Source of the DNA: Natrarchaeobius halalkaliphilus
Lineage (GTDB): Archaea; Halobacteriota; Halobacteria; Halobacteriales; Natrialbaceae
Direction of reading: 5' to 3'
DNA: 64,000 nt
Assembly: GCF_003841485.1 (NCBI RefSeq)
Contig: NZ_REFY01000001.1
Coordinates: 1 to 64,000, forward strand
The notes under the pieces were generated by a model. The model had not been told where the DNA came from. It worked only from the letters and a program-made list of their open reading frames with translations, and searched no databases. The position numbers and the translations under genes are program-made. Position 1 is the first letter of the stretch, and every line of letters begins with the position of its first letter. Below, piece after piece: positions 18,010-63,929 of this stretch.

Positions 18010-18095
18010 TCATACGGATTACTGTAACGATTTACCGGCGCACCCGCGACCCGGGCGGCGGGTGCGTCGGAAATGATTTACAGTAAACCGTATCA
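18010..18095 (-). repeat. Palindromic dispersed element, copy A (end of mgtE)
   Basis: The outer 18-bp arms match at 16 of 18 positions; the minus-strand arm reads TGATACGGTTTACTGTAA. The inner part holds a GC-rich stem (CGCACCCGC with GCGGGTGCG). The right end supplies the TGA stop codon of mgtE. Copies B and C are at 58022-58107 and 63844-63929. It probably acts as a strong terminator hairpin. Confidence 0.85.
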
Positions 18096-19139
18096 GAGCA
18101 GTTCCGCCAGCAGGACGGCTGCCAATCCGAAGTAGATCAGGAGGGCAGTAACGTCCTTGATCGTAGTGATCAGCGGGTCGGAGGCCGCCGCCGGATCGAA
18201 CCCGAGTTTGTTCATGACCCACGGAATAACGTAGCCCACGACCGATGCGACGACACAGACCGAGACGAGCCCGACGAAGACGACGGTCGCCAGTTCGAAG
18301 GCGTACGGCTCGTCGATCTGCCAGAAGTAGGCGGCACTGGCACCGATTCCGCCGATGATCAATCCGATAAGCAGACCGATCAGGCCCTCGCGGGCGAAGT
18401 ACTTCATCGCGTTACGGTCGTCGATCTGTCCGAGTGCGAGCCCGCGGACGAAGATCGTCGACGCTTGCGTTCCCACGTTCCCGCCCATATCCATGATTAC
18501 CGGAACGAAGAAGGCAAGCGCGACGACCGCTTCGAGCGTATCCTCGTAGGCTTCTATCACACCGCCAGCGAGTAACCCACCCGCGAGCGCGACGATCAGC
18601 CAGGGGAGTCGAAGCCGCAAGATGCGCGGGATCGATGACTCGAGGATCGCTGAACTTCGAGACTGCTCGATGTCCGCGAACGAAAACCCTGCGCTCTTTA
18701 AGATGTCTTCGGTGGCTTCTTCCTCGACGACCTCGAGCATGTCGTCAGTTCGGAGAACACCGACAAGAAAGCCGTCGGCGTCGACGACCGGCAGCGCGGG
18801 GAAGTCCCGCTCTGCCATGTCGTCGGCGGCGTGCTCCGGGTCGGCATCGGCGCTGATCGTGACGAGATCGGTCATCATGTGATCCTCGACGACGTCGTCT
18901 TCGGGAGCGTTGAGTAGTTCCCGAAGGGACATGACGCCGACGAGTCGACCCGCGTTGTCGGTCGCGTAGAGATAATAGACGGTCGTTTCTTCGGTGATGG
19001 GGTCGAAGTCACGGAACTCGTCGATTGCGTGCCCGATGAACGTTTCCTGGGTGACCGCAACGTATTCGTCGTCCGTGATTTCAGCGACGCGATCCGCGTG
19101 AAACTCGAGGTTCGAACTAGCAACCTCCATACGTTTCAC
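18093..19139 (-). CDS. mgtE: MgtE-family Mg2+ transporter with two CBS domains
   Basis: The 348-residue protein has a short N-terminal region, a CBS pair (residues about 45-142, with GRLVGVMSLRELL and GFLVGVLRTDDMLEV), a linker, and five membrane helices (about 180-347). The family signature FFVPVIMDMGGNVGTQAST is at about 210-228 and the pore-end motif ASDPLITTIKDVTALLIYF near the C terminus. In MgtE channels the CBS domains sense cytosolic magnesium. The large N-domain of bacterial MgtE is missing. The start is ambiguous: the first ATG (19139) or the fourth codon (MEVASS, 19130), which sits about 27 bp from GGTTATCCG. The stop codon lies in repeat copy A. Confidence 0.9.
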   Translation of the reverse strand: MKRMEVASSNLEFHADRVAEITDDEYVAVTQETFIGHAIDEFRDFDPITEETTVYYLYATDNAGRLVGVMSLRELLNAPEDDVVEDHMMTDLVTISADADPEHAADDMAERDFPALPVVDADGFLVGVLRTDDMLEVVEEEATEDILKSAGFSFADIEQSRSSAILESSIPRILRLRLPWLIVALAGGLLAGGVIEAYEDTLEAVVALAFFVPVIMDMGGNVGTQASTIFVRGLALGQIDDRNAMKYFAREGLIGLLIGLIIGGIGASAAYFWQIDEPYAFELATVVFVGLVSVCVVASVVGYVIPWVMNKLGFDPAAASDPLITTIKDVTALLIYFGLAAVLLAELL

Positions 19140-19538
19140 CCCGGCTGTGCGAGCGGATAACCGCTACAAACTCGGCTTCTCGTGGATCGGGATCAGCGCC
19201 CTCGAGGCACTGGCCGGGCCCGTGACTTCTCTCGTTGATCGGGGTATCGATACCGAATTGGCTGCTACGATTCGTATCTGGCATACACCAGTACGGTTTA
19301 GAGGGTACTAAAAGAGTTCTTTGTCTCGAATATTAATATGGTATTCAGAAACACGACACGCCAACGCATCCCACGTATCCGACCGGAACGGTCCTCATCG
19401 AGACGGTCTTCTTCCGGTCAGTTCTGTGCAATCGCATACTAGTAGCGCTTTCACCGGTGACCGGGCAGGATAATCCGTCTACTTGCCGCCGTCACGGGAC
19501 GGACGGAAAAAGCATTCACTCGTCGCCAGCCGGTCGGC
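19140..19538. other. Intergenic region, no gene seen
   Basis: About 400 bp lie between the mgtE start and the end of the next minus-strand gene. An AT-rich patch (CGAATATTAATATGG, about 19327-19341) looks promoter-like but no ORF follows it. Near 19504-19509 the minus strand has GCTTTTTCC, a T-run 30 bp past the stop of the DUF5518-type gene that probably terminates it. Confidence 0.5.
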
Positions 19539-19910
19539 TCACTCGTCGAGAACGCCACCGACCGCGCCGGCGATCGCGCTCTCTACGGCCATCACGAACG
19601 AGACGACGACGGCGACGACGAAGATGCCGAGGCCGGCGACACCGGTGAGGAGGCCGCCAGCGGGACCGCCGACCCAGCCGATGAGTCCGACGGCGACGGC
19701 GATGAGAAAGCCGCCGACGAGGCCGCCGAACGCGCCGGCGAGCAAGCCGTGCCAGAAGCCGCGTCCGAGTCCGCCGCCGGCGAGGTAGCCGGCGACGAAG
19801 CCGCCGACCAGTCCCGCCGCGAGTTGGCCGACGACGGGGAGCGTGAGTCCGACGATACCGAGGACGACTATGACGACGAATCCGATGATTACTGCGCGCC
19901 AGTCGGTCAT
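19539..19910 (-). CDS. DUF5518-type small membrane protein
   Basis: The 123-residue protein is almost entirely hydrophobic, with four predicted membrane helices separated by Gly-rich turns (GFVAGYLAGGGLGRGFWHG, AGAFGGLVGGF, GWVGGPAGGLLTG). The ATG giving MTDWRAVIIGF is preferred over the TTG seven codons upstream, because the minus-strand element CGTTTATGAC sits 22-32 bp before it. Gly-zipper repeats suggest tight helix packing. From memory this is the DUF5518 family common in haloarchaea, with no known function. It is divergent from the Nog1-family GTPase. Confidence 0.7.
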   Translation of the reverse strand: MTDWRAVIIGFVVIVVLGIVGLTLPVVGQLAAGLVGGFVAGYLAGGGLGRGFWHGLLAGAFGGLVGGFLIAVAVGLIGWVGGPAGGLLTGVAGLGIFVVAVVVSFVMAVESAIAGAVGGVLDE

Positions 19911-20014
19911 ACTCGAGGGAAGCCACGCCAAGTCATAAACGCTTGGCTAGCCGTCCGCGGATAGTCGGCGGGATATCGAACGACCTTTTACCACCGCGGC
20001 CCCTACAATCTGCT

Positions 20015-21109
20015 ATGATTTTCGAAGACCTTCCGACGACGCCCACGTCGGAAGAGCTGATCGACAAGGCGTTCTCACGGGCGGCACGGGCCGGTCGATC
20101 CAAAGGCGGCCTCGATGCCCAGCAGTCGATGCTCCAGACGGCGGCGAACATCATCTCGGACAACTTAGAGAACGTGGTGACGGCCTGGCCGGACTTCGAG
20201 TACGAAGACGACGTCCATCCGTTCTATTACGAACTCGCGGACGCGATTTTGGACGTCCCCGACCGACGCTCGGAGGGGGAAACAGACGCGGATGCGCCCG
20301 GCGGAGTCGACGAACTTCGCCAGAGCCTCTCGGAGGTGATGTGGGCCAGCCGCAAGGCTCGCGAGATCCACGACGAGTACCAGTCGAAGCTCAGAAAAAC
20401 CGACGTCGACACGGCACGAAAGCACCGAAAGCAGGCCTTCGCACGGCTGGCAGACATCGTCGAGCAGGTCGACGACGAGCTGTTGTACATCAACAAGGCT
20501 CGAAACGACCTGCGCGACCTGCCGGATATCGATCCCGACGAGCCGACGATCGTCGTCGCCGGCTATCCGAACGTCGGCAAGTCGTCGCTGGTCAACGACG
20601 TGACGAACGCCCGCGGCGAGACCGCGGCGTATCCGTTCACGACCAGGGGTATCGGCGTCGGTCACTTCGAAGGAGCGGACCTGTCCGCCGAATCGGAGCG
20701 GACCGAACGGTCCGCAATGGACGATCACATCCGCCACCAGATCGTCGACACGCCCGGGTTACTCGATCGCCCACCGAAGGAACGAAACGAGGTCGAGGCT
20801 CAGGCGGTCAGCGCTATCGAACACCTCGCTGATTGTATGCTCGTCATCCTCGATCCCAGCGCCGAGTGTGGCTACCCACTCGAGTCACAACTCGAGCTTC
20901 GGGACGCGATCCAGGCCCAGTTCGAAGAGGTTCCGGTTCTAACGGTGGCGAACAAGGTCGACCGGTCGGAGGTCTGGAACGACGAGCTGGTCGAGGAGAT
21001 GGACGCCGACTACCGAATGAGCGTCGAAACCGGCGAGAACGTCGACCGCGTGCTCGTGGCGGCCGTCGAGGCGATCGACCACGAACCGCAGTTACCGTTC
21101 GAGGAGTGA
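20015..21109 (+). CDS. Nog1-family GTPase (OBG/TRAFAC), ribosome-assembly type
   Basis: The 364-residue protein starts MIFEDLPTTPTSEELIDKAF, the N-terminal helical domain of Nog1-like GTPases. The G domain follows: G1 GYPNVGKSSLVN (residues about 186-197), the switch PFTTRGIGVGHFE, G3 DTPGLLDRP, G4 NKVDRSE and G5 SVETGENVD. In eukaryotes Nog1 acts in 60S maturation; a similar large-subunit role is inferred here. The ATG is preferred over an upstream codon because CCTTTTACC lies about 25-30 bp before it. It lacks the long C-terminal extension of eukaryotic Nog1. Confidence 0.9.
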   Translation: MIFEDLPTTPTSEELIDKAFSRAARAGRSKGGLDAQQSMLQTAANIISDNLENVVTAWPDFEYEDDVHPFYYELADAILDVPDRRSEGETDADAPGGVDELRQSLSEVMWASRKAREIHDEYQSKLRKTDVDTARKHRKQAFARLADIVEQVDDELLYINKARNDLRDLPDIDPDEPTIVVAGYPNVGKSSLVNDVTNARGETAAYPFTTRGIGVGHFEGADLSAESERTERSAMDDHIRHQIVDTPGLLDRPPKERNEVEAQAVSAIEHLADCMLVILDPSAECGYPLESQLELRDAIQAQFEEVPVLTVANKVDRSEVWNDELVEEMDADYRMSVETGENVDRVLVAAVEAIDHEPQLPFEE

Positions 21110-21182
21110 TGGTCGTGTCCCCACGTCGCCGTCTGGGAGGACCACAACCGAGACGGAACGCGAGCCTGGCGCGGCGCGAGCC

Positions 21183-21494
21183 ATGAACAGCCCCGGAATC
21201 CTCTGGATGGTCCAGACGGCGGCCGGTCTGTCGATGGCGGGGCCGATGTTCGTCGTCGGTTTCGAGTTTCTTCGAGGGGGTCGAACCGTCGCCGGTGTCG
21301 GGTTCTTCGCACTGGGCGTCGTGGCGCTTTACTTTCCGACCTACCTCCTCAACCGGATCGGAGGCCCGCGGGCCTGGATCCGTCGACGGCTCGGTCGATC
21401 CGGATCCGACGCGGACGATACCGACGAGGAGGGGGCGACTACCGAGGTCGATCGATCGGAATCGAGCCCGCTGGATCGGCTCCGGCGGCGGTGA
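21183..21494 (+). CDS. Small two-helix membrane protein, unknown
   Basis: The 103-residue protein has two hydrophobic segments (residues about 5-27 and 35-55) followed by a basic then acidic cytoplasmic tail (RRRLGRSGSDADDTDEEG). It starts 73 bp after the Nog1-family GTPase on the same strand and may be cotranscribed. No motif is recognised. Coding is supported by the typical halophile composition and good spacing. Confidence 0.65.
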   Translation: MNSPGILWMVQTAAGLSMAGPMFVVGFEFLRGGRTVAGVGFFALGVVALYFPTYLLNRIGGPRAWIRRRLGRSGSDADDTDEEGATTEVDRSESSPLDRLRRR

Positions 21495-21614
21495 AGAACG
21501 GAACCTGCGACTCGAGCGTTCGAGGCGTCGAGTGTGAATCTTCACCGCTGCTGAACGCCCTCGAAGACCCGGCTACGCGAGTCCGTCTCCCGGCTGTCGT
21601 TCGAGGGATCGACG

Positions 21615-22907
21615 CTATCGTTCGACCAGGCCGACGTACCGTATTTCGACGCCGACGGGATCGTCGGCGTGTTGATTGATCCGCTCGTGGAGCGTATCAG
21701 CGAGTTCCGGCGGTGATTCGCCCGGAGGTCCGCCGATCGTTACCACGACCCGTTCGGGCCCGATGAACGGGTAGTCCTGATCCATGACGACCTCGAACTC
21801 GAGCAGTTGGTACTGGGCGAACTCCTCCTCGTCGAGGACGAGTTCGACTTCGCCACGGGCGTTCTCCTCGAACGTCGACGTGACGAACGAGGAGTAGGTG
21901 ATCGCGCCGAGGAAGACGGCGAAGACGAGGACGATCACGACGAGGCCGACGACCCGACGCCGAACCCGTTCTTCGGTTTCTCCGTGCGTAAACAGGTTTT
22001 CGGGCCGATACCCGGCGTACCACAGCGTCAGCAACCCGGCGAGGTTGACCGAGAGGACGTTGACCAGCACGAGCGCCGTCGATCCGATCGCGGCTGACGG
22101 TTGACCCCAGGCGATAGCGATTCCGGCGGCGGCGGCGGGGGGAATCAACGCGGCCGCGATCATGACGCCGACGAGTGCCACGGACGTCCCAGTCGCGATA
22201 CTGATGATCCCCGCAACACCAGCACCGAGAGCAACCGCAAGCGAGAGTAAATCGGGTGCCAGACGCTCGGATATTTCGTCTACCTCTCCGATGGCGAGGC
22301 CAGGAGGGACGACGTTCGTTATCCGCACCATCCAGGCGAAGACCGCGGCGGCTGCGATCGCGAGAACGACGCCGAGGATCTGATAGAGGACGCTCTCGAC
22401 GAACAGATCCTCGTCGTTGATCACGGTTCCGACGCCGGCCCCGAGTGCCGGTCCGATCAACGGTGCGATTACCATCGATCCGACGACTACCGCCGGCGAA
22501 TCGAGGAGGAGCCCGGCGGTCGCGACGACCGCGCTGATGATCGTCATGATCGAATACACCGCAAACGTCGGCGTCAGCGATTCGGCTTCTGCCTGAAGCT
22601 CCTGTCTCGAGATCCGATCGGATTCGACGTCGCCGTTATCGTACTCTTCGCGTAACGCTTCGAACCGGCGGGAAACGACAGTTTCCGCGTCTACGACGAC
22701 CGTGTAGGCGTCTTCGTCGATACCCGCGTCTTGCAACTCGTCGAGAACCCCCTCGACCGCCTGCGAGGGGAGCGGGAAGTAGACGACCGCCGTGTACTCC
22801 CGATTGCTGTTCTCGTCAGTGACGACGTAATCGACCCCTCGTTCGTCGAGCGCCTCGAGGATGGTCTCGCGTTTCCCCGTCGGCACCGTCAGCTGTACGA
22901 GCCGCAC
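21615..22907 (-). CDS. DUF389/TIGR00341-type membrane protein
   Basis: The 430-residue protein has an N-terminal ferredoxin-like domain (RLVQLTVPTGKRETILEAL), followed by about eight membrane helices with Gly/Pro-rich motifs (SPAVVVGSMVIAPLIGPAL, AALIPPAAAAGIAIAWG). It ends in an extracytoplasmic domain of about 100 residues. The GTG start is chosen because VRLVQLTVPTG matches the usual family N terminus and AAGTTATGTT lies 25-33 bp upstream; the 48-codon upstream extension is not family-like. The family function is unknown. It is divergent from engB. Confidence 0.85.
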   Translation of the reverse strand: MRLVQLTVPTGKRETILEALDERGVDYVVTDENSNREYTAVVYFPLPSQAVEGVLDELQDAGIDEDAYTVVVDAETVVSRRFEALREEYDNGDVESDRISRQELQAEAESLTPTFAVYSIMTIISAVVATAGLLLDSPAVVVGSMVIAPLIGPALGAGVGTVINDEDLFVESVLYQILGVVLAIAAAAVFAWMVRITNVVPPGLAIGEVDEISERLAPDLLSLAVALGAGVAGIISIATGTSVALVGVMIAAALIPPAAAAGIAIAWGQPSAAIGSTALVLVNVLSVNLAGLLTLWYAGYRPENLFTHGETEERVRRRVVGLVVIVLVFAVFLGAITYSSFVTSTFEENARGEVELVLDEEEFAQYQLLEFEVVMDQDYPFIGPERVVVTIGGPPGESPPELADTLHERINQHADDPVGVEIRYVGLVER

Positions 22908-23115
22908 ATCGACCCCTGAGACGCCCGGGGAACATAACTTCCGACCATCTCCCGCCGCGCTCGGCCGGTTGCTGGGATCGCGGCGTTCACTTCGATCTCC
23001 GCTGGTCGATTCGTAGTCCCGAAGGCATTCCGAGGATTCTGCGAGCGTCACCGGTCGTCGTCGGTCTATCGCGTCGGGACGTCAGCTATATCCTCGAGAC
23101 GAACCAACGACGCCC

Positions 23116-23733
23116 ATGTTCGATACGCGTCCCGACCGCGAGGCCGAGGTCGTTCTCGTCGGTCGCTCGAACGTCGGCAAGTCGACGCTCATGCGCGAAG
23201 TGACCGGCCACAGCTTCGATACCGGTGGTAGTCCGGGCGTCACGCGCGAGCCGAACCACTACGACTGGGCTCCCGAGGACTTCGTCCTCACGGATCTGCC
23301 CGGATTCGGCTTCATGAGCGGTGTCCACGAGGACCGTCGCGAGGAGATCAAGACGAACATCGTGAGATATCTCGAGGAGTACGCAGAGAACGTTCTCGTC
23401 GCGATTCTCGTCGTCGACGGCAAGAGCGCCGTCGACATCATCGACCGCCACTCCGGGCCAGACGAAATCCCCTACGACGTCGAGATGTTCCACTTTTTGC
23501 GAGAACTCGGCGTCCCGACCGTCGTCGCGGTCAACAAGATGGATAAGGTCGACGATCGCGACGAGCGCCTCGACGAACTGTGCGATCGACTGGGCCTTTA
23601 CCCGCCGTGGAAGCAGTGGCAGGAGGTTATCGCACCCATCACGGCGAAGTCGGGGCGAATCGAGCCGCTGAACGAAGCCGTTCGCGAACACCTCCACGAG
23701 CACCAGCGAGACGACCTGTTCAAGTTCTTCTAG
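23116..23733 (+). CDS. engB: GTP-binding protein EngB (YihA family)
   Basis: The 205-residue TRAFAC GTPase has G1 [11 protein letters not shown] (residues about 16-26), switch [11 protein letters not shown]3 [11 protein letters not shown]4 NKMDKV and G5 [10 protein letters not shown]. In bacteria EngB/YsxC assists large-subunit assembly; the archaeal role is assumed similar. The TATA-like GCTATATCC about 23-30 bp before the ATG supports the start. Together with the Nog1-family GTPase 2 kb upstream this gives two ribosome-assembly GTPases in one neighbourhood. Confidence 0.93.
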
Positions 23734-24084
23734 ATTCGGCCGTACTCGGATGAGGCGAGGTGGTGAGGCTGGTAAGGGTGATGAGGCTGGCGAGGCTGGT
23801 AAGGGTGATGAGGCTGGCGAGGCTGGTGGAGGTGGAGATCCAGCCCTCCAGAGCAAAACGCGGTTCCGATCTCGAAAAGCGACGGCTGTGCGATCGGATA
23901 CTGTTTCGCCGTACGGATCGAAATCGACGGCGGCTCGGAGTGAAATCCTCGTCACAAGGGGCTCGGAGGGGGTAACTCTTCGTCACGGCCGCCGTCCTAC
24001 GGTATTCGTCGGGCCGGTTTCGGTCTGTCGTTTTCGTTCGCTGACGACCGTGGGCTTATGCGGTTCGATGCCGTTTCCGATCGT
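23734..24084. other. Intergenic region with a 27-bp tandem repeat
   Basis: No convincing gene lies between engB and the histidine kinase. The left half holds a tandem repeat (separate entry). The right half ends in GTGGGCTTATGCGG about 25 bp before the kinase ATG. Both strands stay open across the repeat because its unit is a multiple of three, so the open frames there are not evidence of coding. Confidence 0.5.
23765..23836. repeat. 27-bp tandem repeat, about 2.5 units
   Basis: Units begin at 23765, 23792 and 23819. Each starts GAGGCTGGTAAGGGTGATG and continues AGGCTGGC; the third diverges after GAGGCTGGT into GGAGGTGG. The unit itself contains two GAGGCTGG half-copies, so it arose from a shorter motif. 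It is purine-rich on the plus strand. Confidence 0.85.
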
Positions 24085-27000
24085 ATGAGTGAGCGAGCCA
24101 GGAATGTCGACGGGACATTCTGGGACGACGCGAACGACTCCGAGTCCCACCAGCGCTGTCGAACGCTGCTGAACGCGATCGACGACGGGATCGTCGTTGT
24201 CGACGCCGACGGCGGGCCGACGTTCGCGAACGAGCGTGCCACGGACATCCTCGACTGTTCTCGAGACGAACTGTCGAGACTCGGCGTCGGCACCTCCCAC
24301 TGGACCTTTTTCGACGAATCCGGCGAACCACTCGAGCAAGCGGAGATACCGTTCAACCGCGTCGTCGATCGTGAAAAACCGGTCTCCGAGCAGACCCTCG
24401 GCGTCCGAGGTTCCTCCGGCGAGCGCGTGTGGCTCTCGGTCAACGGCGCGCCACAGTGGGACCAAAACGACGAGTTCGACGGTGCCGTCTTCGTCTTCGA
24501 AGACGTTACCGATCAACGCGACGTCGAGAGCGAACTCGAGGAGATCCTCGGACGGGTGACCGACGCGTTCTACGCGCTCGACGAGGAGTTCCGGTTTACG
24601 CACGTCAACGAGCGCGCCGAGGAACTGATCGACTTCGAGGGCGAGGGCCTCGTCGGGAGGCATATCTGGGAGGCGTTCGAGTGGGCCGGCGACTCGGTGA
24701 TCCGCGAGGAGTACGAACGGGCGATGGAAACACAGAACCCGACCTCGTTCGAGGTCTACTATCCCGAACCGCTCGACACCTGGTTCGAGATCCACGTCTA
24801 TCCGTCGACGACCGGTCTATCCGTCTACTTCCGGGACGTAACCGACCGAAAGGAGCGCGAATCCGAACGCGCCGAACTACTGCGTGAGTTGCGTGAAAGC
24901 GAACAACGGCTACAGCTCGCACTCGAGGCGAGCGAGATGGGAACGTGGGAACTCGATTTGCAGACCAGAGAGTCGCCCGCCCGTTCGCCGCGACACGATC
25001 GAATTTTCGGCTACGAGGAGCCACTCGAGGGCTGGGATTTCGAGGCCTTTCTCGATCACGTTCACCCGGACGATCGCGAACGAGTGAAACGGCGCTTCGA
25101 GGAGGCCTTCGAGACGGGAACGTGGCAGTTCGAGTGCCGGATCCTCCGCGCCGACGGTGAGGAACGTGTAATCGCCGCACGGGGAGAGTTCACGGTCGAC
25201 AGCGAGGGGGAGCCAGTTCGTGCAGCCGGGACGGTTCAGGACGTCACCGAGCGAGCGGAGCGCGAACAGGCGCTCGAGGAATCCGAACGTCGCTACCGCA
25301 CCCTGGCGGAGTACTTCCCGAACGGACTCGTCACGCTGTTCGATCACGACCTCGAGTACACGCTGGCGGCCGGACTGGGGTTCGACCGGATTCCCGTCGA
25401 GCCCGACAGCCTCGAGGGGCGACAGTTCCACGACGTCTGGCCGGACGAAACCGCCGCCGAACTCGAACCCGCGTTTCAGGCGGCTCTCGAGGGCGAGGAA
25501 GCGTCGATCGAGCTCGAGTATGCAGGTCGGGAGTGGGTCCTTCACGCGGTGCCGATCACCGACGACGAGGGCGACGTCTTCGCCGGGATGACGATGGCCC
25601 AGGACATCACCGAACAGAAAGAGCGCGAGCAGTACCTGGAAAACGCAAAGGCGCAGCTCGAAGCCGCGACCGAAGCCGGCGCTGTCGGCACCTGGGAGTG
25701 GCACGTTCCGGAGGATAAGCTGATCGTCAGTGGCTCGCTTGCGAACGCGTTCGACGTCGATGCGGACGACGATCGCAGGGAAATGCCACTCGAACGATTC
25801 CTCTCGTCGATCCACGAGGAGGACAGAGACCGCGTCGCAGCACAGATCGAGGACGCCGTCGAACACTGCGGCGAGTACGAGGCCGAGTATCGCGTCCGGG
25901 ACGACGACGAACTTCGGTGGGTCGTCGCTCGGGGCCACGTCAAGTGTGACGAAACCGGCACTGCACAGCGATTTCCCGGCGTCATGACGGATATTACGGA
26001 GCGCAAACGAGCCGAACTCGAGGCCGAAAAGCAGTCGCGGGAACTCGAGACGCTCTTTCAGGTGCTACCGGTGGGTGCGGTGGTCGCGAACGAAGACGGG
26101 TCGCTGCTCAGAGCGAACGACACCGCAAGGGAGATCTGGGGTAGTGACGCCTTCGACGTAGCGTCGATCGAGGAGTACGACAAGTTCTCTGCGGTCTGGG
26201 CCGACTCCGGTGAGCCGGTCGAACGCGAAGACTGGACGATGTACCAGGTGCTCCAGGGTGAGGAGGTCCAGGAGCCGAACATCTACGAAATCAGCACGTT
26301 CGACGACCGACAACGGATCATCATGGAACACGGAAAGCCGGTCCGAGACGTACGCGGGGACGTTCACCGCGCCGTCGTGACGCTCACCGACATCACCGAA
26401 CGCCGAGCGTACCGGCGCAAACTCGAGGAGTCGAACGAACGCCTCGAGCAGTTCGCCTACGCCGCGTCCCACGATTTACAGGAGCCGCTCCGGATGGTTA
26501 CGAGTTACCTCCAGCTTATCGAGAACAGATACGCCGACGCACTCGACGACGACGGCGAGGAGTTCATCGAGTTCGCCGTCGACGGCGCAACGCGCATGCA
26601 GAAGATGATCGACGGGCTCCTCGAGTACGCTCGCGTTGACACGCGAGGAAATCCGTTCGAACCGGTCGAGCTGAACGCGATTCTCGAGGACGTTCTCGAG
26701 GATCTGCGGGTGCAGATCGACGAGGCCGACGCCGAGATCAGGGCCGACGATCTTCCTCGCGTCGACGGCGACGCCAGTCAGCTTCGCCAGGTGTTCCAGA
26801 ACCTCCTACAGAACGCGATCGAGTACAGCGGTGACGAACCGCCACGGGTCGAGATCGCCGCCGAGCGCACCGGTGATCGCTGGACGGTTTCGATCCGTGA
26901 TGAGGGAATCGGGATCGATCCGGACGAGACGGAGCGCATCTTCGAGGTGTTTCAGCGGCTACAGTCGACCGAGGAGAGCGAGGGTACCGGAATCGGTCTC

Positions 27001-27105: not shown

Positions 27106-27241
27106 GACGGATCGCTGTACCGGTTTGCCGGCGGGACCGCAGACGGCTCGCGGTTGTGCCGGTGCCGATGTACAACGGGTCGACTGGTGGGGACTATACC
27201 GGTCACACGCGAGATGCTATCGGTATCGAGAGCCCAGCCTG

Positions 27242-27877: not shown

Positions 27878-27900
27878 GTGTTCACCTCGTCGCGTGGACC

Positions 27901-27909
27901 ATATAAATT
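27901..27909 (-). promoter_or_regulatory. TATA box of the tetR gene
   Basis: The minus strand reads AATTTATAT, centred about 28 bp before the tetR ATG. The operator palindrome begins 31 bp further from the gene, so repression of tetR itself would need a dimer upstream of its own TATA box. Confidence 0.6.
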
Positions 27910-27939
27910 CGCGGCCGAATCGACCGGCAGCCACCGATC

Positions 27940-27957: not shown

Positions 27958-27990
27958 TTTTAATCTTCTGGTCAGATTCTATACTTGCGC

Positions 27991-29346: not shown

Positions 29347-29386
29347 CCGGAACCGACTATTTCACAGCGTTTCATCACACTCACAG

Positions 29387-50534: not shown

Positions 50535-50549
50535 GCGATCTCGAGTTGG

Positions 50550-52550: not shown

Positions 52551-52572
52551 TCTCGAAGCCCTATCCATCTCC

Positions 52573-54084: not shown

Positions 54085-54127
54085 ACGCGGCAAAAGACCT
54101 ATCGCCCCGACGGACATCCTCTCGGAT

Positions 54128-54505: not shown

Positions 54506-54511
54506 CCCAGG

Positions 54512-55657: not shown

Positions 55658-55669
55658 TACAGTTTCGTT

Positions 55670-55753
55670 CGCACCAACGGTACCGTCCCATTCGTACCAC
55701 CAGTGGTACCGTCCGTACTCGCACCAGTGGTACCGCCCCGCTCGAACCAACGG
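55670..55753. repeat. Degenerate 23-27-bp tandem repeat with a palindrome
   Basis: Four imperfect units begin CGCACCAAC, CGTACCACC, CGCACCAGT and CGAACCAAC (at about 55670, 55693, 55720, 55743), with GGTACCGTCC or GGTACCGCCC inside the first three. GTACCAC-CA-GTGGTAC (55694-55709) is a perfect 7-2-7 inverted repeat. It lies in the gap between the coiled-coil gene and usp, possibly a regulatory or terminator array. Confidence 0.7.
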
Positions 55754-55863
55754 GAGGCTGCGAGCCGAGCCGATCTACCCCACCGAACGTCGCTCGAGCG
55801 CTGGACGCTGTCGTTCGTGCGAACGCCACAGGACTTTCGTCGCTTGCACCCCTTCGTTCGTTC

Positions 55864-56271
55864 GTGACTCGCCACCTTCTCGTTCCGATGGACGATTCCG
55901 ATCCCGCACGGGCGGCACTCCGACACGCGCTGACGACGTTTCCGGGAGCCGAGGTGACGGTCGTCCACGCCGTCGACGATCTCGAGGCGGGCTACGGCGG
56001 CGATCCGGGGATGGGGGATGTTTCTTCCTCCTCCGATCCCGAGTTTTTCGACGACGTTCGAGCGGCCGCGGCGGAACACGATGCGTCGGTCGAGCCGACG
56101 GTTCTGCGCGGAACGGCCGCAACGGCGATCCTCGAGTACGCCGACGAGGCCGACGTCGACCAGATCGTCATCGGCAGCGACGGACGGGCCGGCGTCTCAC
56201 GAGTGCTCCTCGGAAGCGTCGCGGAGGCGGTCACGCGCCGGTCGTCCGTCCCGGTAACGATCGTCCCCTGA
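55864..56271 (+). CDS. Universal stress protein (UspA family)
   Basis: The 135-residue protein starts at GTG, giving VTRHLLVPMDDSDPARAAL, the standard first strand and helix of the Usp fold. The nucleotide-binding part is IVIGSDGRAGVSRVLLGSVAEAVTRRSSVPV, matching the G-2x-G-9x-G(S/T) ATP-binding motif. An ATG nine codons later would remove the first strand, so GTG is preferred; the longer upstream frame shadows the preceding gene. A short acidic insertion (GMGDVSSSSDPEF) is in the loop. Confidence 0.88.
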   Translation: MTRHLLVPMDDSDPARAALRHALTTFPGAEVTVVHAVDDLEAGYGGDPGMGDVSSSSDPEFFDDVRAAAAEHDASVEPTVLRGTAATAILEYADEADVDQIVIGSDGRAGVSRVLLGSVAEAVTRRSSVPVTIVP

Positions 56272-56317
56272 CGGACGAATCACGGGGATTATTTACCGGT
56301 CGGACGAACCGCCGGTT

Positions 56318-56827
56318 ATGGACGACCGGGCCGGAACGACGCTGCACACCGGTCTGTTGATCTCGACGACTGCCGTGATCGCGTGGCTCTTCGGTCTCCC
56401 GATGCTGTTCCCGAGTCTCGGCCCGTCGGCGTTCGTCCTCGCGCTGTTTCAGGACAGCGAGGCAACGTCGACCCGACGGGTCGTCGGCGGCCACGCGATC
56501 GGCGTCGTCGCCGGCCTGCTCGCGTACCACCTGCTCGCGGCCGGCATTTCGATGACGGCGACGACGGCACCCGGCTCGCTCGAGGGACTTCGTCTCGCCG
56601 CCAGCGGCGTCCTCGCGACGACGCTGACGGCGGGTGGGATGCTCGCGACCGACACTCGTCATCCACCCGCCTGTGCGACTACCCTCATCGTCTCGCTTGG
56701 ATTACTCACGACGGTACTCGAGGGAGTGATGATCGTTCTCGCTGTCGTCGTGTTGGTCTCCACTCACCGGGTGCTGCTGGCGAGCGAGCGAATCGGTCCG
56801 CGCTACGGGAAGCGCCTCCGGTCGTGA
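56318..56827 (+). CDS. HPP-family membrane protein
   Basis: The 169-residue protein has four membrane helices. HPP-family features are LPMLFPSLGPSAFVLAL near residue 30 and the name-giving motif DTRHPPACATTLIVSLGLL. Cyanobacterial HPP proteins have been linked to nitrite transport; the function here is unproven. TATA-like ATTATTTACC is about 25-34 bp before the ATG. It is convergent with the next gene, with only 14 bp between their stops. Confidence 0.85.
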   Translation: MDDRAGTTLHTGLLISTTAVIAWLFGLPMLFPSLGPSAFVLALFQDSEATSTRRVVGGHAIGVVAGLLAYHLLAAGISMTATTAPGSLEGLRLAASGVLATTLTAGGMLATDTRHPPACATTLIVSLGLLTTVLEGVMIVLAVVVLVSTHRVLLASERIGPRYGKRLRS

Positions 56828-56841
56828 TCGACTCGGTCGGT

Positions 56842-57915
56842 TCACTCCGACCGACGATATCCGGTTTCGTCGGCGGTTTCGATCTCCTCTCCGGGAATCT
56901 GTTGCTGGAGCACGAACGGTCCGAAGTCCGCTGCCGTGCGGCGAGCGATGGTGGCGATTCGCAGAACGTACGCGAGCAGGACCGCGAACGGGCTGAACAG
57001 GGCGGTAATCGTCGTACTCACCACGATCGCGTAGACGATCGGGTTCAGCTCCAGCGCCAGAAGGTTTCCGTACGCGACGATGACGAACGCACCCCCGAGT
57101 AGCGTCGGAAATCCGACGTACAACAGGATCTTCGAAAGATCCGCGAGTTCCTGTTGCATGTGGACCGTCTTGAAGTACTGACGGGCGACGTGGATGTCGC
57201 GCAGGAGTTCCTCGAGACGATCCAGCTGGTTTTCGGCGGCGTCAGAGAGGTCGTGTCGGTGGCGAGATCGGATGCGTCGAACACTCTGGAGCTGCCAGGG
57301 GTCGTTGTAGTGGACGATGACCGCGATCACGGTGAACGTCCCGAAGCTCGCCCCCTCGAGCCTTTCGATCGCGTCGACGTCACGTGGTGTCGTCGTCGAC
57401 ACGTAGTCGTCGATCGCTTCCCGTAGCGCAACGGGTGCGTCCCGACAGACGTTCCACAATCCCAGCGCCGTCCGTCGCTTGGATTCGATCAGGACGCGGA
57501 GGAAAGCCGAGGGTTCGACCGGACTCGGCCGATATCCGGTGTGATCCTCGATACCATACCGGTATTCGCGGGTCTCTTCGAGTCGCTCTATGAACACGCC
57601 CGTGGTTCCGAACTCCTCGGAGAGGATGAGTTGATTGATCGCGAGGACGACGGTGATGAACGGGAGCATGCCGCCGACCAGCGCCGCGGCGATGGCCGTG
57701 ATATCGCCGGCCTCGGCGGGCGTGATGAGATCGACGCGGATCAACAGGAGGCACGCACCGAAGACGAAAAGCAGGAGCCAGCCGGTCAGGAGTCGGCGGT
57801 CACCGTCGAGGTAAAGCCAGTGTAACAGATCGTCGATGTGCGATTCCGATCCGACCAGCGGATCGGGTTGTGAGGCGGGTGGTTCCTCGCCGTCGTCACT
57901 GTCGCGCTCGATCAT
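56842..57915 (-). CDS. Membrane protein of unknown function with large cytoplasmic domain
   Basis: The 357-residue protein has an acidic N terminus and two helices (LLTGWLLLFVFGACLLLIRV and an ITAIAAALVGGMLPFITVVL-like segment). A helical cytoplasmic domain of about 160 residues (HDLSDAAENQLDRLEELLRD) and two more helices follow (VGFPTLLGGAFVIVAYGNLL and ALFSPFAVLLAYVLRI). No known family is recognised. Helix topology resembles bestrophin-like or DUF-type channels only in general shape. Repeat copy B lies just upstream of its start. Confidence 0.75.
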   Translation of the reverse strand: MIERDSDDGEEPPASQPDPLVGSESHIDDLLHWLYLDGDRRLLTGWLLLFVFGACLLLIRVDLITPAEAGDITAIAAALVGGMLPFITVVLAINQLILSEEFGTTGVFIERLEETREYRYGIEDHTGYRPSPVEPSAFLRVLIESKRRTALGLWNVCRDAPVALREAIDDYVSTTTPRDVDAIERLEGASFGTFTVIAVIVHYNDPWQLQSVRRIRSRHRHDLSDAAENQLDRLEELLRDIHVARQYFKTVHMQQELADLSKILLYVGFPTLLGGAFVIVAYGNLLALELNPIVYAIVVSTTITALFSPFAVLLAYVLRIATIARRTAADFGPFVLQQQIPGEEIETADETGYRRSE

Positions 57916-58021
57916 CGTCTACAGTACGGTCCGTTCGCTGGTTATCGACACGGTACGCTCGATTCTACGGAGAACAATCACGGATCGACGGAAAGAACTA
58001 TTGCCGGCAGAACAGCGCCAC

Positions 58022-58107
58022 TCATACGGTCTGCTGTAAGTCAGTACCGGCGTATCCGGAGACCGGGTGCCGGGTGAGCCGGTAAACGGTTACAGCAGAC
58101 CGTATCA
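58022..58107 (-). repeat. Palindromic dispersed element, copy B (end of glmM)
   Basis: The 18-bp outer arms match at 17 of 18 positions; the minus-strand arm is TGATACGGTCTGCTGTAA. An inner stem TACCGGC/GCCGGTA lies between. The terminal TGA is the glmM stop codon, exactly as in copies A and C. Confidence 0.85.
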
Positions 58108-59469
58108 AGCGTTCGCCTTCGCATCCGCGAGCGTCTCGTACAGCTCGTCGGCCAACTCCTGGGCGCGACCGGCGTCTCGAGCTTCGGCGTAGACCCGAAC
58201 GAGGGGTTCCGTTCCGGACGGACGGGCGAGCACCCACGCGTCGCCGTAGTCGAGGCGGTAGCCGTCTCGCGTGTTGAGTTCGGCGTCCGCGGATTGGGCG
58301 TGGTTCGCCGCCGCATCGAGCATGGCGTCGCGTTCGGCCGTCGATTCGTACTCGAGGTTGTGTCGAACGTTCGCGTAGCCGTCGAAGGGTGAGACGATCT
58401 CGCTCACCGATCGCTCTGCCACGAGTTCGAGGAATCGTGCCGCGGTGAACGCGCCGTCGCGCGCGAGCCGGAAAGCGGGGAAGAAGATTCCGCCGTTGCC
58501 CTCGCCCGCGATCGGAACGCGCGCGCCGCTCGCTTCGAGCTCTCTGATCCGCGTGATGATGTTCGTCGAGCCGATCGGGGTCAACTCGAGTTCGGCACCG
58601 AGGTCGGTGACGACGTCGACGAGTCGCTGGGAGACGTTGACCGCCGAGACGACGGTGTCTCCCGCCTCGAGTTCGGCAGCGGCGAGGGCGGCGAGCGTGG
58701 CGTCGCCCGGAACGTACTCGCCGTCCTCATCGAAGAAGATCGCACGATCGGCGTCGCCGTCGTGAGCGATTCCGACGTCAGCGTCGCTGGCCCGAACGAG
58801 TTCTCCCAGGTCTCCCAGGTTCTCCGGGACGGGTTCTGGATCGCGACCGGGGAAGCGACCGTCGGCCTGGCCGTTGACCGTGACGACGCGACAGCCGAGT
58901 TCCCGAAAGAACCTCGGGCTGGTCAGTGCGCCAGCGCCGTGACCGGGATCGAGTGCGACCGTCAGATCGGCACCGGCGATCGTCTCCCGCTCGGCAGCCG
59001 CGAGCAGTTCATCCACGTACTGGTCCGTCGTCCCCGTTATCTCTCGGACCCGTCCGGTCTCGTCCCAGGGAGCAACGGCGAACCGTTCGGACAGCAGCGT
59101 TTCCTCGATCGTCTCGAGGTCCGAGACGGCCAGTTCGACGCCGTCGGTTCCGACGAGTTTGATTCCGTTGTACTGTGGCGGGTTGTGTGAGGCGGTGATC
59201 ACCACGACGGGAACACCCGCTCGCTCGGCGTGGAACTGTGCTCCTGGTGTGGGGAGGATACCGAGGCGGTCGACGTCGGTCCCCGTGCTCGCGAGCCCGC
59301 TTGTGGCCGCGTCGGCCAGCATTCGGCCGGTATAGCGCGTGTCGCGCGCGATGGCGACCCGATCGACCCCCCACGCCGTCCCCGTAGCCTTCCCAACGCG
59401 CAGGACGAATTCGGGCGTCAGCTCTTCGTTGGCGACGCCGCGCGTCCCGCTCGAGCCGAATACTTCCAT
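58105..59469 (-). CDS. glmM: Phosphoglucosamine mutase/phosphohexomutase
   Basis: The 454-residue alpha-D-phosphohexomutase has the phosphoserine loop ITASHNPPQYNGIK (Ser94), metal loop HDGDADRAIFF (Asp237, 239, 241), sugar-binding GEGNGGIFF (322-330) and phosphate-binding ARPSGTEPLVR (residues about 415-425). The N terminus MEVFGSSGTRG is typical. GlmM converts glucosamine 6-phosphate to the 1-phosphate; archaeal members often also accept glucose or mannose phosphates, so specificity is not certain. It is divergent from the beta-propeller gene. Its stop is inside repeat copy B. Confidence 0.92.
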   Translation of the reverse strand: MEVFGSSGTRGVANEELTPEFVLRVGKATGTAWGVDRVAIARDTRYTGRMLADAATSGLASTGTDVDRLGILPTPGAQFHAERAGVPVVVITASHNPPQYNGIKLVGTDGVELAVSDLETIEETLLSERFAVAPWDETGRVREITGTTDQYVDELLAAAERETIAGADLTVALDPGHGAGALTSPRFFRELGCRVVTVNGQADGRFPGRDPEPVPENLGDLGELVRASDADVGIAHDGDADRAIFFDEDGEYVPGDATLAALAAAELEAGDTVVSAVNVSQRLVDVVTDLGAELELTPIGSTNIITRIRELEASGARVPIAGEGNGGIFFPAFRLARDGAFTAARFLELVAERSVSEIVSPFDGYANVRHNLEYESTAERDAMLDAAANHAQSADAELNTRDGYRLDYGDAWVLARPSGTEPLVRVYAEARDAGRAQELADELYETLADAKANA

Positions 59470-59563
59470 CGATCGGTAGTGTGACGGGCGTCCCCAAAGG
59501 GGTTCCGAAGCCGACGATCAGGCGGAACGCTTTCGGCTGGTGCTCTCGTTCGTCCATCCAGAG

Positions 59564-60466
59564 ATGGATTCGATCGAGGAGAAACGAGTCTACGGCGACC
59601 GCGACGGCGCACTCGAGGCGTACGTCACGAGTTCGATCGGCGTCGTTCGCGTTCGGGTTGCCGGCGACACCGTCGGTGAGTTCGGTCTCTGTGAGCGCTG
59701 CGACGCCAGGGACGTGACGGCGACCGACGACGTCGTCGCGATCGCGACGGAGGAGGATGTTCGCGTGTACGACCTCGAGAGTGGAGTGGGCTCAGCCGAG
59801 GGTACCGACGACGAGCCGACGTTCGCGGAAACCGGGTTCGGCTCCGCGGTCGCCGTCGGTGCGGACGGCCCAGATCTGATCGCGGCCGGCGATGACGGTC
59901 GCGTCGCCCGGCGTCGCGCCGGCACCGATCGTTGGGAACCGCTCGCCGCAGACGCGGTGGGTGGAGCGGACTCGGAGCGACCGGGAATCGGTACGGTCCG
60001 AGCGATCGACGGCGATCTCGTCGGAACCGAGACGGGGGTCTATCGCATTCACGACGGCGGGCTCGATCACGCCGGACTGACGGCTGTCAACGACGTCTCG
60101 ACGCCAGGCGTTCCGCTCGCGGCCACGGACGACGGCCTGTACAAGCTCGGAAACGGCTGGATGGAGATCCTCGAGGAATCGTTCGAATCGGTAACTGCGG
60201 ACCCGCGTTCGGAGCCCGGCCGTCTGGTTCGGGCTCACGCAACTGCGGGCGACACGATCTACGCGCTAGAGGGTGGCGAGTGGCACGCGACCGGCAGCGC
60301 CGGCGCTCCGATCGTCGCCATCCGTTACGGCGAGACGGTCTACGCCGTAACGGAGGACGGCGGCTTTTGCGCTACGGGCGAGGGTGGATGGCGCACGCAT
60401 CCACTCGGTATCGACGGCGTCACGGGGCTCGCGATCGCAGCCGCCCGAAGCGATAGTAGCCACTGA
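59564..60466 (+). CDS. Beta-propeller protein (HVO_0234-like) next to prs
   Basis: The 300-residue acidic protein has repeating short strands of a propeller: FGLCERCDARDVTATDDVVAI, VAVGADGPDLIAAGDDGRVAR, LVGTETGVYRIHDGG, LAATDDGLYKLGNGW, TIYALEGGEWHATGS and VYAVTEDGGFCATGEGG. The ATG giving MDSIEEKRVYGDRDG is preferred because that N terminus matches the haloarchaeal HVO_0234-type proteins as I recall them. It lacks a signal peptide. It lies 172 bp upstream of prs on the same strand. Function unknown. Confidence 0.8.
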   Translation: MDSIEEKRVYGDRDGALEAYVTSSIGVVRVRVAGDTVGEFGLCERCDARDVTATDDVVAIATEEDVRVYDLESGVGSAEGTDDEPTFAETGFGSAVAVGADGPDLIAAGDDGRVARRRAGTDRWEPLAADAVGGADSERPGIGTVRAIDGDLVGTETGVYRIHDGGLDHAGLTAVNDVSTPGVPLAATDDGLYKLGNGWMEILEESFESVTADPRSEPGRLVRAHATAGDTIYALEGGEWHATGSAGAPIVAIRYGETVYAVTEDGGFCATGEGGWRTHPLGIDGVTGLAIAAARSDSSH

Positions 60467-60482
60467 AAGTCGATGTACACCT

Positions 60483-60505
60483 GATCGCACGACAGCGATG
60501 CGATC
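60483..60505 (+). terminator. Stem-loop after the beta-propeller gene
   Basis: GATCGCA and TGCGATC form a perfect 7-bp stem with a 9-nt loop, 16 nt past the stop codon. No T-run follows directly, so termination here is tentative. Confidence 0.35.
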
Positions 60506-60638
60506 GGTGTGTGAATTGTTGCAGTTGGTACTATAAGGCGAACGCTCCACCGAGCGCGTGTTCGAACGCCTTTGACCGTCGAGGCGACCCGAGCGCGAGA
60601 ACGAAAACCCGTTTACCCCCCGCGCTGTGGGCTCGAGT

Positions 60639-61493
60639 ATGATCATCAGTGGATCCGCGTCCCAGTCACTCGCCGCGAGGCTCGCGACCGAACTCGAGGA
60701 ATCGCTCGCGACCGCCGAGTACGACCGCTTTCCCGATGGGGAGCTCCTCGCGTCAGTCCCCGATATCGACGCCAATGCGGAGCGTGCCGTCATCGTCGCC
60801 TCGACGGTCTCGAGCGACGCTCACCTCGAAGTACTCCAGCTTCAAGACGCCGCACGGCAGGCCGGCATCGACGAGACCGTCACGGTTCTCCCGTACATGG
60901 GCTACGGACGCCAGGACAGGTCCTTCGATGCCGGACAGCCGATTTCGGCGCGCGCGGTCGCTCGCGCGATCTCGACGGGGACGGATCGCGTCCTCACGGT
61001 CTCTCCGCACGAACAGGTCGTCTGCGAGTTCTTCGAACCGACGGCCACGGCAGTCGAGGCGGCGGATCGGCTGGCCGATCCTCTCCCCGCCGATCTCGTC
61101 GATCCAGTGTTCCTCTCGCCGGACGCCGGCGCGATCTCGCTCGCTGAGACGGTCCGGGACGCCTTCGGTGCGGGCGAGACGGACTACTTCGAGAAGGTCC
61201 GTCACTCGGGAACCGCGGTCGAAGTCTCTCTGAGTGGCGTCGATGTCGTCGGTCGCGACGTCGTCATCACGGACGACATCATCGCGACCGGGTCGACGAT
61301 GAGCGAGGCGGTCGCTGTACTGCGCGAGCGGGACGTCGGCCGCGTCTTCGTCACCTGCGTCCATCCGCTGCTGGTCCGAAACGCGTACACGAAGCTCGCC
61401 CGCGCCGGCGTCGAGGCGATCTACGCCACGGATACGATCGAGCGCGAAAGCAGCGTCGTTTCGGTCGCACCCGAACTCGCAGCCCACCTCTGA
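60639..61493 (+). CDS. prs: Ribose-phosphate pyrophosphokinase (PRPP synthase)
   Basis: The 284-residue enzyme makes PRPP from ribose 5-phosphate and ATP, feeding purF and the histidine and pyrimidine pathways. Motifs are MIISGSASQSLAARLA, YDRFPDGELLASVPD, LPYMGYGRQDRSFDAGQP (catalytic flexible region), SPHEQVVCEFF and the PRPP loop VVITDDIIATGSTMSEA. Length matches class III archaeal enzymes. TATA-like GTTTACC lies about 22-28 bp before the ATG. Confidence 0.96.
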   Translation: MIISGSASQSLAARLATELEESLATAEYDRFPDGELLASVPDIDANAERAVIVASTVSSDAHLEVLQLQDAARQAGIDETVTVLPYMGYGRQDRSFDAGQPISARAVARAISTGTDRVLTVSPHEQVVCEFFEPTATAVEAADRLADPLPADLVDPVFLSPDAGAISLAETVRDAFGAGETDYFEKVRHSGTAVEVSLSGVDVVGRDVVITDDIIATGSTMSEAVAVLRERDVGRVFVTCVHPLLVRNAYTKLARAGVEAIYATDTIERESSVVSVAPELAAHL

Positions 61494-61521
61494 CTCTCCT
61501 CGAGTTCGAGCGACGAATCCA

Positions 61522-63705
61522 TCACCGTCGTGACGGTCTCGTCCACCGCTTTCCGACGAGAATCACCGTTATGGCGGCCAGGAGCGAACCGATCGCGGTT
61601 CCGACGCCGAAACCGGGTACCTCCTCGAGGTCCGCGGGTGGGACGGCCTCGATCGTCACCGTCGTTTCCCGATCCCCGACGACGAGTTCGTAGGTCCCCT
61701 CCTCGTCGAATTGCACCGACGCGTTGATCGTTTTCCGCTCGTCCGACGCGACGACGACGGTTCGCTCCGCGACGACGCCGTCTTCCGTTCGGAACTCGAT
61801 AACTGCCGTTCCGGGACCGTCGCCGGCAGCCTCGACCGTCGCCGTGACGTCTACGGGTTCGCCCGGACGTGCCGGTTCGGGATCGATCGAGAGGTCGGTG
61901 ACGGTGACGCTCGATGCCGTCCGGACGAAGACCGCCAACTCGTCCGAGCCGACCCGAAGTGCGTAGTCGCCGGGTTCGGGCGGCGTCCAGGCGAGCCGTT
62001 CGGTTGCGTGTCTCCCCACGGGGAGGGCCGACTGGTTGTAGTCGACGATGTCACCGTCGATAACGAGGCTCGCGTCGTACGTCCCGTCTCGATCTCCGAC
62101 GTTCTCGACCGTGGCCGGGACCGTCACTGACGTATCCATCGGAACCACCACGGCGTCCCTCTCGGCGGTTACGTAGCCGTCCTCCCACGGTTCGTCCGCC
62201 ACCTCGAGTGGCTCTGGACCCAAACGGTACGCGAATGCGGCTCCCTCCAGATCGAACGCGGCTGCGTGTTCGCTCCGTGACCACATCCCCGGCGTCGCGT
62301 CGGTCAGCGTGTACCGCTCCGCGGTCGCCCGGACCGCCTCTCCGCCGGCGTCCTCGAGGAGCTCGAGGAACCCGTCTCCAGTAAGTCCCTCCTCGTTCGC
62401 GTTCATCACCCGGAAGACGTCTTCGAGCGTGCGGTCTCCCTCCGTCTCGAGTCGCAACACTCGATCGATCTCGGCGTAGACGAGTCGCCCTTTGACGTAG
62501 TCGGTTCGATCGTCCTCCCAGCTCGGTGGATCGGCAAGGATTCCGTCCGCGTACGGCGCTCGCTCGCCGCGTTCTAGGTGTCGCTTCAGTTCGTCGAACT
62601 CGATCAGCCCCTTCTCGAAGGCGATCGTCGCCGCGTAGTACTCGGCCTGGGCCTCGACGAGCCACTCCGCTTCTGGTCCGAGTCGAGCGTCCGACGCGGA
62701 ACCCGAGAAGTCCTGACGAACGTGGACGTACTCGTGAACCCAGATGTTCGCCGGGTTCTCGAGGGGAGCGTCGGCACGAACCCACGCGTCTCCGTCGCCG
62801 TACTGGACGCCCTCTGGCCCCCAATTGACGTCGGTCGGAACGGCGACGATGAATGCTTCGTCGGGTCTGGCCCCGACGTCGAGTTCCCGGCTCGCGTACG
62901 TCAGCGTCTCGAGGACGGCGGACGGCTCCTCGGCCATCTCTGCCGATTCGGAGACGACGAGGCGAATCGTCTCTCCGTCGACGGTTCGCTGGTGTTCTTC
63001 GACCTCACCGAAGAAGGCGATGTCTCCGCCGGTCGCACCGGGGCCGTCGACGCGGACCGTCTCGTCGTGGCCGACCGACTCGGTCTGTCGCAGCGAGATA
63101 TCGATACCGGGTACCTGAACCACTCCCCACTCGCCGGTGTCGACGAACGTGTACCGCTCGTCGGCGGTCGTCGCTGTCCTCGCGTGTTCTGTTCGCTCGT
63201 CGATGGTCGCCGTTACCATCGCGCGTTTCGTCGGCTCGTTCGGGACCTCACCGCTCGTTTCCGGTGATCCGCCCGATTCGAGCGCGTGAGCGCCGACGTC
63301 ACCCGTCCGGTTGGCCGGCATGGTAAACCTCACCGACGGTCGATCCGTCTCCTCGGTCCACTCGAGCGTTCCGTCGCCGGTCTCCTCGAACCCCTCGGTC
63401 GACTCGACTTCCGCACGGGAGTGGAGACCGATCTCGAGGTCGACGACGGGATCGGGGACGCGAAACTCCTTTTCGGTCTCGAACGTCCCGGATCGATCGG
63501 GCAAGTGGCGGAGCGTCGTCGTCCGATAAAGCGTGCTTTCAGTGGCGGTCGTGGCCGTGATGGACCCGGCGTCGATCGGCTCGAGCGAAGCGGGCTCCGC
63601 TGCCGGTGAGGCGGTCGGTTCGGCAGACTCGAACGCGCCGACGCCGGCCGGGAGGCTGGCGATCATCAAGACGACGAATACGATCGCGATCAGTCGGGAA
63701 GTCAC
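61522..63705 (-). CDS. Exported gluzincin-like metalloprotease with PGF-CTERM-like anchor (Hvo_1808-like)
   Basis: The 727-residue protein has a Sec signal (RLIAIVFVVLMIASLPAGVGA), a beta-rich N-terminal half, and the zinc motif WVHEYVHVRQ (His324, His328). EWLVEAQAEYY follows with Glu351 as the probable third ligand, the gluzincin HExxH-Glu pattern. Two CARDB-like domains follow (TVPATVENVGDRDGTYDAS; DVTATVEAAGDGPGTAVIE). The end is PGFG (residues 697-700), a membrane helix and a basic tail, resembling the PGF-CTERM signal processed by archaeosortase A. It is probably a cell-surface peptidase. It is convergent with prs. Confidence 0.88.
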   Translation of the reverse strand: MTSRLIAIVFVVLMIASLPAGVGAFESAEPTASPAAEPASLEPIDAGSITATTATESTLYRTTTLRHLPDRSGTFETEKEFRVPDPVVDLEIGLHSRAEVESTEGFEETGDGTLEWTEETDRPSVRFTMPANRTGDVGAHALESGGSPETSGEVPNEPTKRAMVTATIDERTEHARTATTADERYTFVDTGEWGVVQVPGIDISLRQTESVGHDETVRVDGPGATGGDIAFFGEVEEHQRTVDGETIRLVVSESAEMAEEPSAVLETLTYASRELDVGARPDEAFIVAVPTDVNWGPEGVQYGDGDAWVRADAPLENPANIWVHEYVHVRQDFSGSASDARLGPEAEWLVEAQAEYYAATIAFEKGLIEFDELKRHLERGERAPYADGILADPPSWEDDRTDYVKGRLVYAEIDRVLRLETEGDRTLEDVFRVMNANEEGLTGDGFLELLEDAGGEAVRATAERYTLTDATPGMWSRSEHAAAFDLEGAAFAYRLGPEPLEVADEPWEDGYVTAERDAVVVPMDTSVTVPATVENVGDRDGTYDASLVIDGDIVDYNQSALPVGRHATERLAWTPPEPGDYALRVGSDELAVFVRTASSVTVTDLSIDPEPARPGEPVDVTATVEAAGDGPGTAVIEFRTEDGVVAERTVVVASDERKTINASVQFDEEGTYELVVGDRETTVTIEAVPPADLEEVPGFGVGTAIGSLLAAITVILVGKRWTRPSRR

Positions 63706-63843
63706 TACAGACCCGTGGAAAGTCGACGATCAAGACTGTTGCGGTGACGGGACCGTCACGTTCGTCGACAACACGGAGAAAACGAGCTTGCGATCATCGA
63801 CTGCCGCGCAGACGAGTTCGGGATCGCGTGGACGAAGACAGGC

Positions 63844-63929
63844 TCATACGGTCTACTGTAAGTCGTTACCGGAGCGACCGCGAGCAGTCCTGCGGTCGCT
63901 CCGGTAAAAAGTCACAGCAAACCGTATCA
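63844..63929 (-). repeat. Palindromic dispersed element, copy C
   Basis: The outer arms match at 14 of 18 positions. Inside is a perfect 16-bp stem (TTACCGGAGCGACCGC at 63866-63881 pairing with 63892-63907) with a 10-nt loop. The terminal TGATACGG provides the stop codon of the partial minus-strand gene at the right edge. Confidence 0.85.

Follow-up and report, generated by a model that had tools for sequence, protein, structure and literature searches.

A palindromic, apparently mobile repeat family of Natrialbaceae with many copies at stop codons

The stretch analysed here (the window) comprises positions 1 to 64,000 of contig NZ_REFY01000001.1 of Natrarchaeobius halalkaliphilus and carries three copies of a palindromic element, each directly behind a minus-strand gene: mgtE, glmM and a gene for an isoleucyl-tRNA-synthetase-like protein, the last with Pfam Anticodon_1, DUF5915 and tRNA-synt_1 matches (on locus L004). 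Each copy is a near-palindrome TACGG...CCGTA of 80 bp, or 86 bp once both 3-bp flanks are included, and all three genes terminate precisely at the TGA flanking the element; both the 86-bp copies and their coincidence with gene ends, described in a first-pass annotation of this DNA, are thus borne out. We propose, with a probability of about 0.88, that these copies belong to a mobile palindromic family resembling miniature inverted-repeat transposable elements (MITEs), and that T(G/C)A target duplication, a palindromic target and selection together explain the stop-codon coincidence.

Arm pairing is nearly perfect in the window copies, with one arm mismatch in copy 1 (TACGGATTACTGTAA). Five of the six arms are exact matches and the remaining one has a single mismatch, where 2.8 matches would be expected by chance in the window at ≤3 mismatches, a repeat pattern far beyond chance. 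The 18-bp outer arms first proposed, TGATACGG..., hold up in this respect but are only partly palindromic: as TGA is repeated directly and not in inverted form, their G opposes a G. Since TGA is direct on both sides and the TACGG...CCGTA arms are inverted, the element proper spans 80 bp, and the TGA is host sequence.

In the 3.5-Mb genome of this organism (own genome), arm matches number 112 + 120 = 232, as against 1 + 4 = 5 for a reversed control, and at least 101 paired copies could be assembled by pairing arms within ~80 stretches, ~40 further arm matches falling outside the stretches read. These copies are uniform in length (exactly 80 bp in 78/101, 79 bp in 16/101) and show what is expected of MITEs: no transposase gene inside the 80 bp, a terminal inverted repeat conserved between copies (TACGGTYTRCTGTRA at both ends) and a target duplication, with identical 3-bp flanks in 84/101 (48 TCA, 34 TGA, 1 TAA and 1 TCG). 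Flanks are likewise identical in 130 of 162 copies from relatives. Among own copies no flank pair is identical over ≥4 bases, identity ending at 3 bp, and mixed TGA-with-TCA flanks occur in only three copies as against 82 concordant ones (Fisher p about 3e-20), which identifies TGA as a host target-site duplication and not element sequence. At four places (L161, L182, L212, L221), elements in tandem have one TGA or TCA in common between them.

The first-pass annotation had considered, besides insertion, that gene ends were captured, that is, that an element with its own TGA was fused to genes by recombination. TGA does adjoin TACGG in all three window copies; nevertheless, such capture is scarcely credible, being contradicted by flanks that are TGA/TGA or TCA/TCA whatever the element orientation, by an own copy with TAA/TAA flanks at a TAA stop (L157) and by orthologues that lack the element and already terminate in TGA. 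Comparison of occupied and empty orthologous loci, as suggested at first pass, located a single TGA at the same place in the empty ones. For glmM, the TGA is followed at once by native downstream DNA in relative G040 and most other relatives, while G039 and G038 have a decayed copy or arm remnant at the same position; for mgtE, the gene of the sister genome G038 ends in CTC TGA with the element absent. Two further comparisons (L168 vs L047, L098 vs L160) revealed empty sites with a single TCA. The element therefore does not supply the stop codon, contrary to the initial claim: insertion hit the TGA already present in the gene and duplicated it.

Table 1. Copies of the palindromic element, their target-site duplications and their host genes in the window.
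Feature	Coordinates	Strand	Remarks
Copy 1, element proper (80 bp)	18013..18092	-	Subfamily B; arms TTTACTGTAA / ATTACTGTAA
Copy 1, target-site duplication, distal side	18010..18012		TCA on + strand (= TGA on -)
Copy 1, target-site duplication, TGA stop of mgtE	18093..18095	-	
Host gene of copy 1, MgtE with CBS domain	18093..19130	-	Pfam PF01769, PF00571; called start 19130
Copy 2, element proper (80 bp)	58025..58104	-	Subfamily C; arms TCTGCTGTAA
Copy 2, target-site duplication, distal side	58022..58024		TCA on + strand
Copy 2, target-site duplication, TGA stop of glmM	58105..58107	-	
Host gene of copy 2, GlmM-like phosphohexomutase	58105..59469	-	Pfam PGM_PMM I-IV
Copy 3, element proper (80 bp)	63847..63926	-	Subfamily A; TTTGCTGTGACTTTTTACCGG end nearest gene, reading from gene
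Copy 3, target-site duplication, distal side	63844..63846		TCA on + strand
Copy 3, target-site duplication, TGA stop of IleRS-like gene	63927..63929	-	
Host gene of copy 3, isoleucyl-tRNA-synthetase-like protein, C-terminal end	63927..64000	-	Runs past window edge

In the mechanism that we envisage, a transposase acting on the ends would insert the element through staggered cutting at a palindromic target of about CGAC-T(G/C)A-GTCG, whose middle 3 bp are duplicated. Where the TGA that is hit terminates a gene, one TGA stays with the gene and the second goes to the downstream region; because the gene retains its stop, insertion is harmless to the protein. Purifying selection would then act as a filter through which coding insertions are lost and promoter-near ones reduced and, with gene ends matching the target, about half of the surviving copies would be left exactly at stops.

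With genes called by a home-made codon-usage caller, 47 of the 101 own copies were found exactly at a TGA that terminates a gene oriented towards the element and one more at a TAA stop, while no called gene has one of these copies inside. Among clean TSA duplications (S = G/C), 39/82 in the own genome and 63/126 in relatives are at TGA stops, far above the 6.8% expected from the counts of TGA stops and intergenic TSA sites. Insertion at stop codons, the other origin considered at first pass, thus holds for about half of the copies; the other half are intergenic, and hence the three out of three seen in the window represent a favourable draw. The target, about CGAC-TSA-GTCG, is alike at stop and intergenic insertions, and haloarchaeal gene ends often match it. 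Per 1000 target-weighted sites, insertions amount to 36.7 at stops, 18.8 at sites ≤100 nt 3′ of genes, 8.0 at other intergenic sites and 0 in coding sequence, a gradient that fits target preference followed by selection. Target motif and loss of coding and promoter insertions explain most of the stop bias.

Some observations weigh against the account given above. The target-weighted excess at stops over nearby 3′ sites is still about two-fold (p = 1.3e-4) and not fully accounted for by a simple filter and, the gene caller being home-made, some copies counted as intergenic may in fact sit at the stops of small genes that it overlooked, and some counted at stops may be intergenic. Moreover, searches that were not exhaustive found no transposase with the element's ends: there was none among 30 DDE_Tnp_1 loci examined out of ~90 Pfam matches in five genomes, none in ~1.5 Mb of loci scanned for long-range end pairs and lone arms, and none when arms around unusual interiors were sought twice across the family. 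What these two family-wide scans brought up were truncated copies, half-copies that are orthologous between two genomes (L379/L380) and copies interrupted by other MITEs. An arm beside a transposase at L305 was considered as a parent element and discarded, as it is outside the insertion sequence. IS5-type and PIF/Harbinger-type transposases generate 3-bp TNA duplications like those of this family and, although none with its ends was found, the duplication points, as a lead only, to an IS5-like or related DDE enzyme as a possible mover.

The two-fold excess at stops would also be expected of machinery that actively targets stop codons or transcription-unit ends beyond the local motif, for example via transcription termination or DNA structure. 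In favour of such targeting, TGA stops account for 49% of clean insertions (99 of 204, own genome and relatives taken together), as against 20–32% expected with sites weighted by the intergenic motif, and stops shortly before a same-strand gene are hit less (2/120 insertions vs 84/583 empty stops), an avoidance that is weak without overlapping genes (same-strand gene 3–60 bp on in 4/116 stop insertions vs 47/514 empty stops, p = 0.04). We nonetheless regard active targeting as unlikely, since intergenic insertions use the identical palindromic motif and selection against intergenic and operon-internal insertions yields the same pattern. Four orthologous gene pairs do have an element at both stops (L152/L103, L177/L083, L186/L046, L049/L121), the elements differing in sequence and the downstream DNA being unalignable; these are therefore independent insertions, recurrent and not inherited, which rules out conservation of element position across genera. 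By a rough estimate, four such coincidences are about the number expected (~4) if stops were hit independently and at random, which likewise speaks against active targeting. The stop-codon coincidence has an ordinary explanation, and stop-codon targeting, like terminator function (see below), is unproven.

Three subfamilies dominate the family, A (TTTGCTGTGACTTTTTACCGG), B (ATTACTGTAACGATTTACCGG) and C (TCTGCTGTAACTGTTTACCGG), and the window copies have unlike inner stems because each belongs to a different one. Relative to the arms, the central loop can point either way (~21 vs 11 in A, ~10 vs 10 in B), so that inner-stem differences are attributable to subfamilies and central-loop inversions. 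The flip could arise by recombination between the inverted arms or through a hairpin intermediate. A combined scenario, in which the machinery would actively target stops or transcription-unit ends as safe harbours and the two loop orientations would reflect a fold-back hairpin intermediate, like parvovirus flip/flop, seems improbable.

RNA folds of the element are very stable (z = -6.0 to -11.4), and the first-pass annotation had taken the differing but paired inner stems as a sign of selection on structure. When copies of one subfamily are compared, however, most changes at paired positions fall on one side and are not compensatory (43:2 in A, 67:0 in B and 46:12 in C), so that selection on the structure of individual copies is unsupported and single copies are under no constraint to pair. 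The copies therefore decay largely regardless of pairing; the pairing itself belongs to the source elements. The strength of the hairpins, their location directly 3′ of the stop and a slight excess of own copies with the T-rich end first (26 vs 15) could suggest that selection retains the elements at gene ends for a function on the 3′ side, as mobile transcription terminators or as stabilisers of mRNA; pneumococcal SPRITE and terminator-like MITEs, as outlined in a review (PMC10969869), would be precedents. We consider this quite unlikely, given the prevalence of one-sided changes, the lack of significance of the orientation bias, the orthologues in most relatives without the element and the half of the copies that lie away from stops. 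Hence, of the mobile or duplicated terminator first suggested, mobility is retained but a terminator role, judged by orientation and by the weak operon-internal avoidance, is unsupported.

A 108-bp relative (L053:3632-3739, also L282) has the same ends and TCA duplication around an unrelated, non-palindromic interior, as expected if a trans-acting protein recognises the ends alone. Other variants were also noted: a longer one (~137 bp) that has TACGGGTTGCTGTACCG at one of its ends and an additional insert in the stem (L052 from 6112 on, L070:5428-5564), and mini-copies of ~21 and ~33 bp with the palindrome centre deleted and the TGA flanks kept (L273, at G118:C11:72306, and L264, at G098:C9:30472). 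At two loci (L386 near 3823, L387 near 4077), copies are interrupted by the nested insertion of a third element, whose ends resemble CTATAGTAACAACTGAAA.

The exact two-arm pattern occurs patchily in Natrialbaceae, in 57/125 genomes and 17/29 genera, and nearly all matches in named genomes are to this family of organisms. Plasmids of Natrinema, Natribaculum, Natronorubrum and Haloterrigena carry the element. Viral spread was considered and set aside, there being no match in IMG/VR or among INPHARED phages.

Compared with known systems, the family is best classed as MITE-like and palindromic, and is apparently undescribed; a literature search for a haloarchaeal repeat of this kind found none. 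Prokaryotic MITEs, as presented in the review (PMC10969869) and in a description of Haloquadratum MITEs (PMC3119063), are similarly short and gene-less, with terminal inverted repeats, a short target duplication, many copies that are mostly intergenic and nested insertions; in contrast to them, this family is almost wholly palindromic, and has about half of its copies at stops, and no transposon that shares its ends and could be its parent was found. The small mobile repeats (SMRs) of Haloquadratum walsbyi (~110 bp) are also haloarchaeal, with prominent inverted ends, high copy number and no known parent transposase, but they prefer other mobile elements and by definition lack target duplications (PMC3119063), with which the preference for gene ends and the 3-bp duplications seen here conflict. 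Repetitive extragenic palindromes (REPs) and their composites (BIMEs) are likewise extragenic, present in many copies and often behind genes (PMC3733652). Being palindromic, gene-less, extragenic and of high copy number, our elements might themselves be REP-type palindromes moved by a Y1 transposase (HUH, RAYT) or palindrome-associated transposable elements (PATEs) derived from IS200/IS605. Either origin is very improbable: REPs are 20–40 bp long and one of their ends is GTAG or CGTC (PMC3733652), unlike the 80 bp with TACGG/CCGTA ends and duplications found here, and PATEs, derived from IS605, have neither terminal inverted repeats nor target duplication (PMC3119063) and are contradicted by both, the 3-bp duplication being present in 84/101 copies. 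Coxiella QMITE2 and pneumococcal SPRITE, RUP and BOX, compared by description and not by sequence, offer parallels in 3′-untranslated location (QMITE2), terminator-like hairpins (SPRITE) and side-by-side clusters; they occur in other hosts, and an exact stop position is not reported for them in the review's account (PMC10969869).

With up to ~100 copies per genome, this is a large dispersed-repeat family of Natrialbaceae, which annotators and transcript mappers will meet behind many genes. It also provides a clean natural case in which the target duplication of a mobile element recreates a stop codon, and makes the two loop orientations and the mobilising transposase testable questions.

We also observed another MITE-like family, ~108 bp long with TACTGTCGGACAG ends, in which T-N-A flanks are common (L318:2524-2637, L278:1522-1629, L033, L100, L127, L129, L136, L044). 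Its L318 copy has TAA/TAA flanks and lies exactly at the TAA stop of the mgtE orthologue; insertion at stop codons is therefore shared by more than one family. Finally, an Rfam search of the window returned two tRNAs only, with no RNA family above gathering score for the element. The two tRNA genes (17468-17540 and 17730-17802), ~260 bp apart and with equal Rfam scores, are located just downstream of copy 1.

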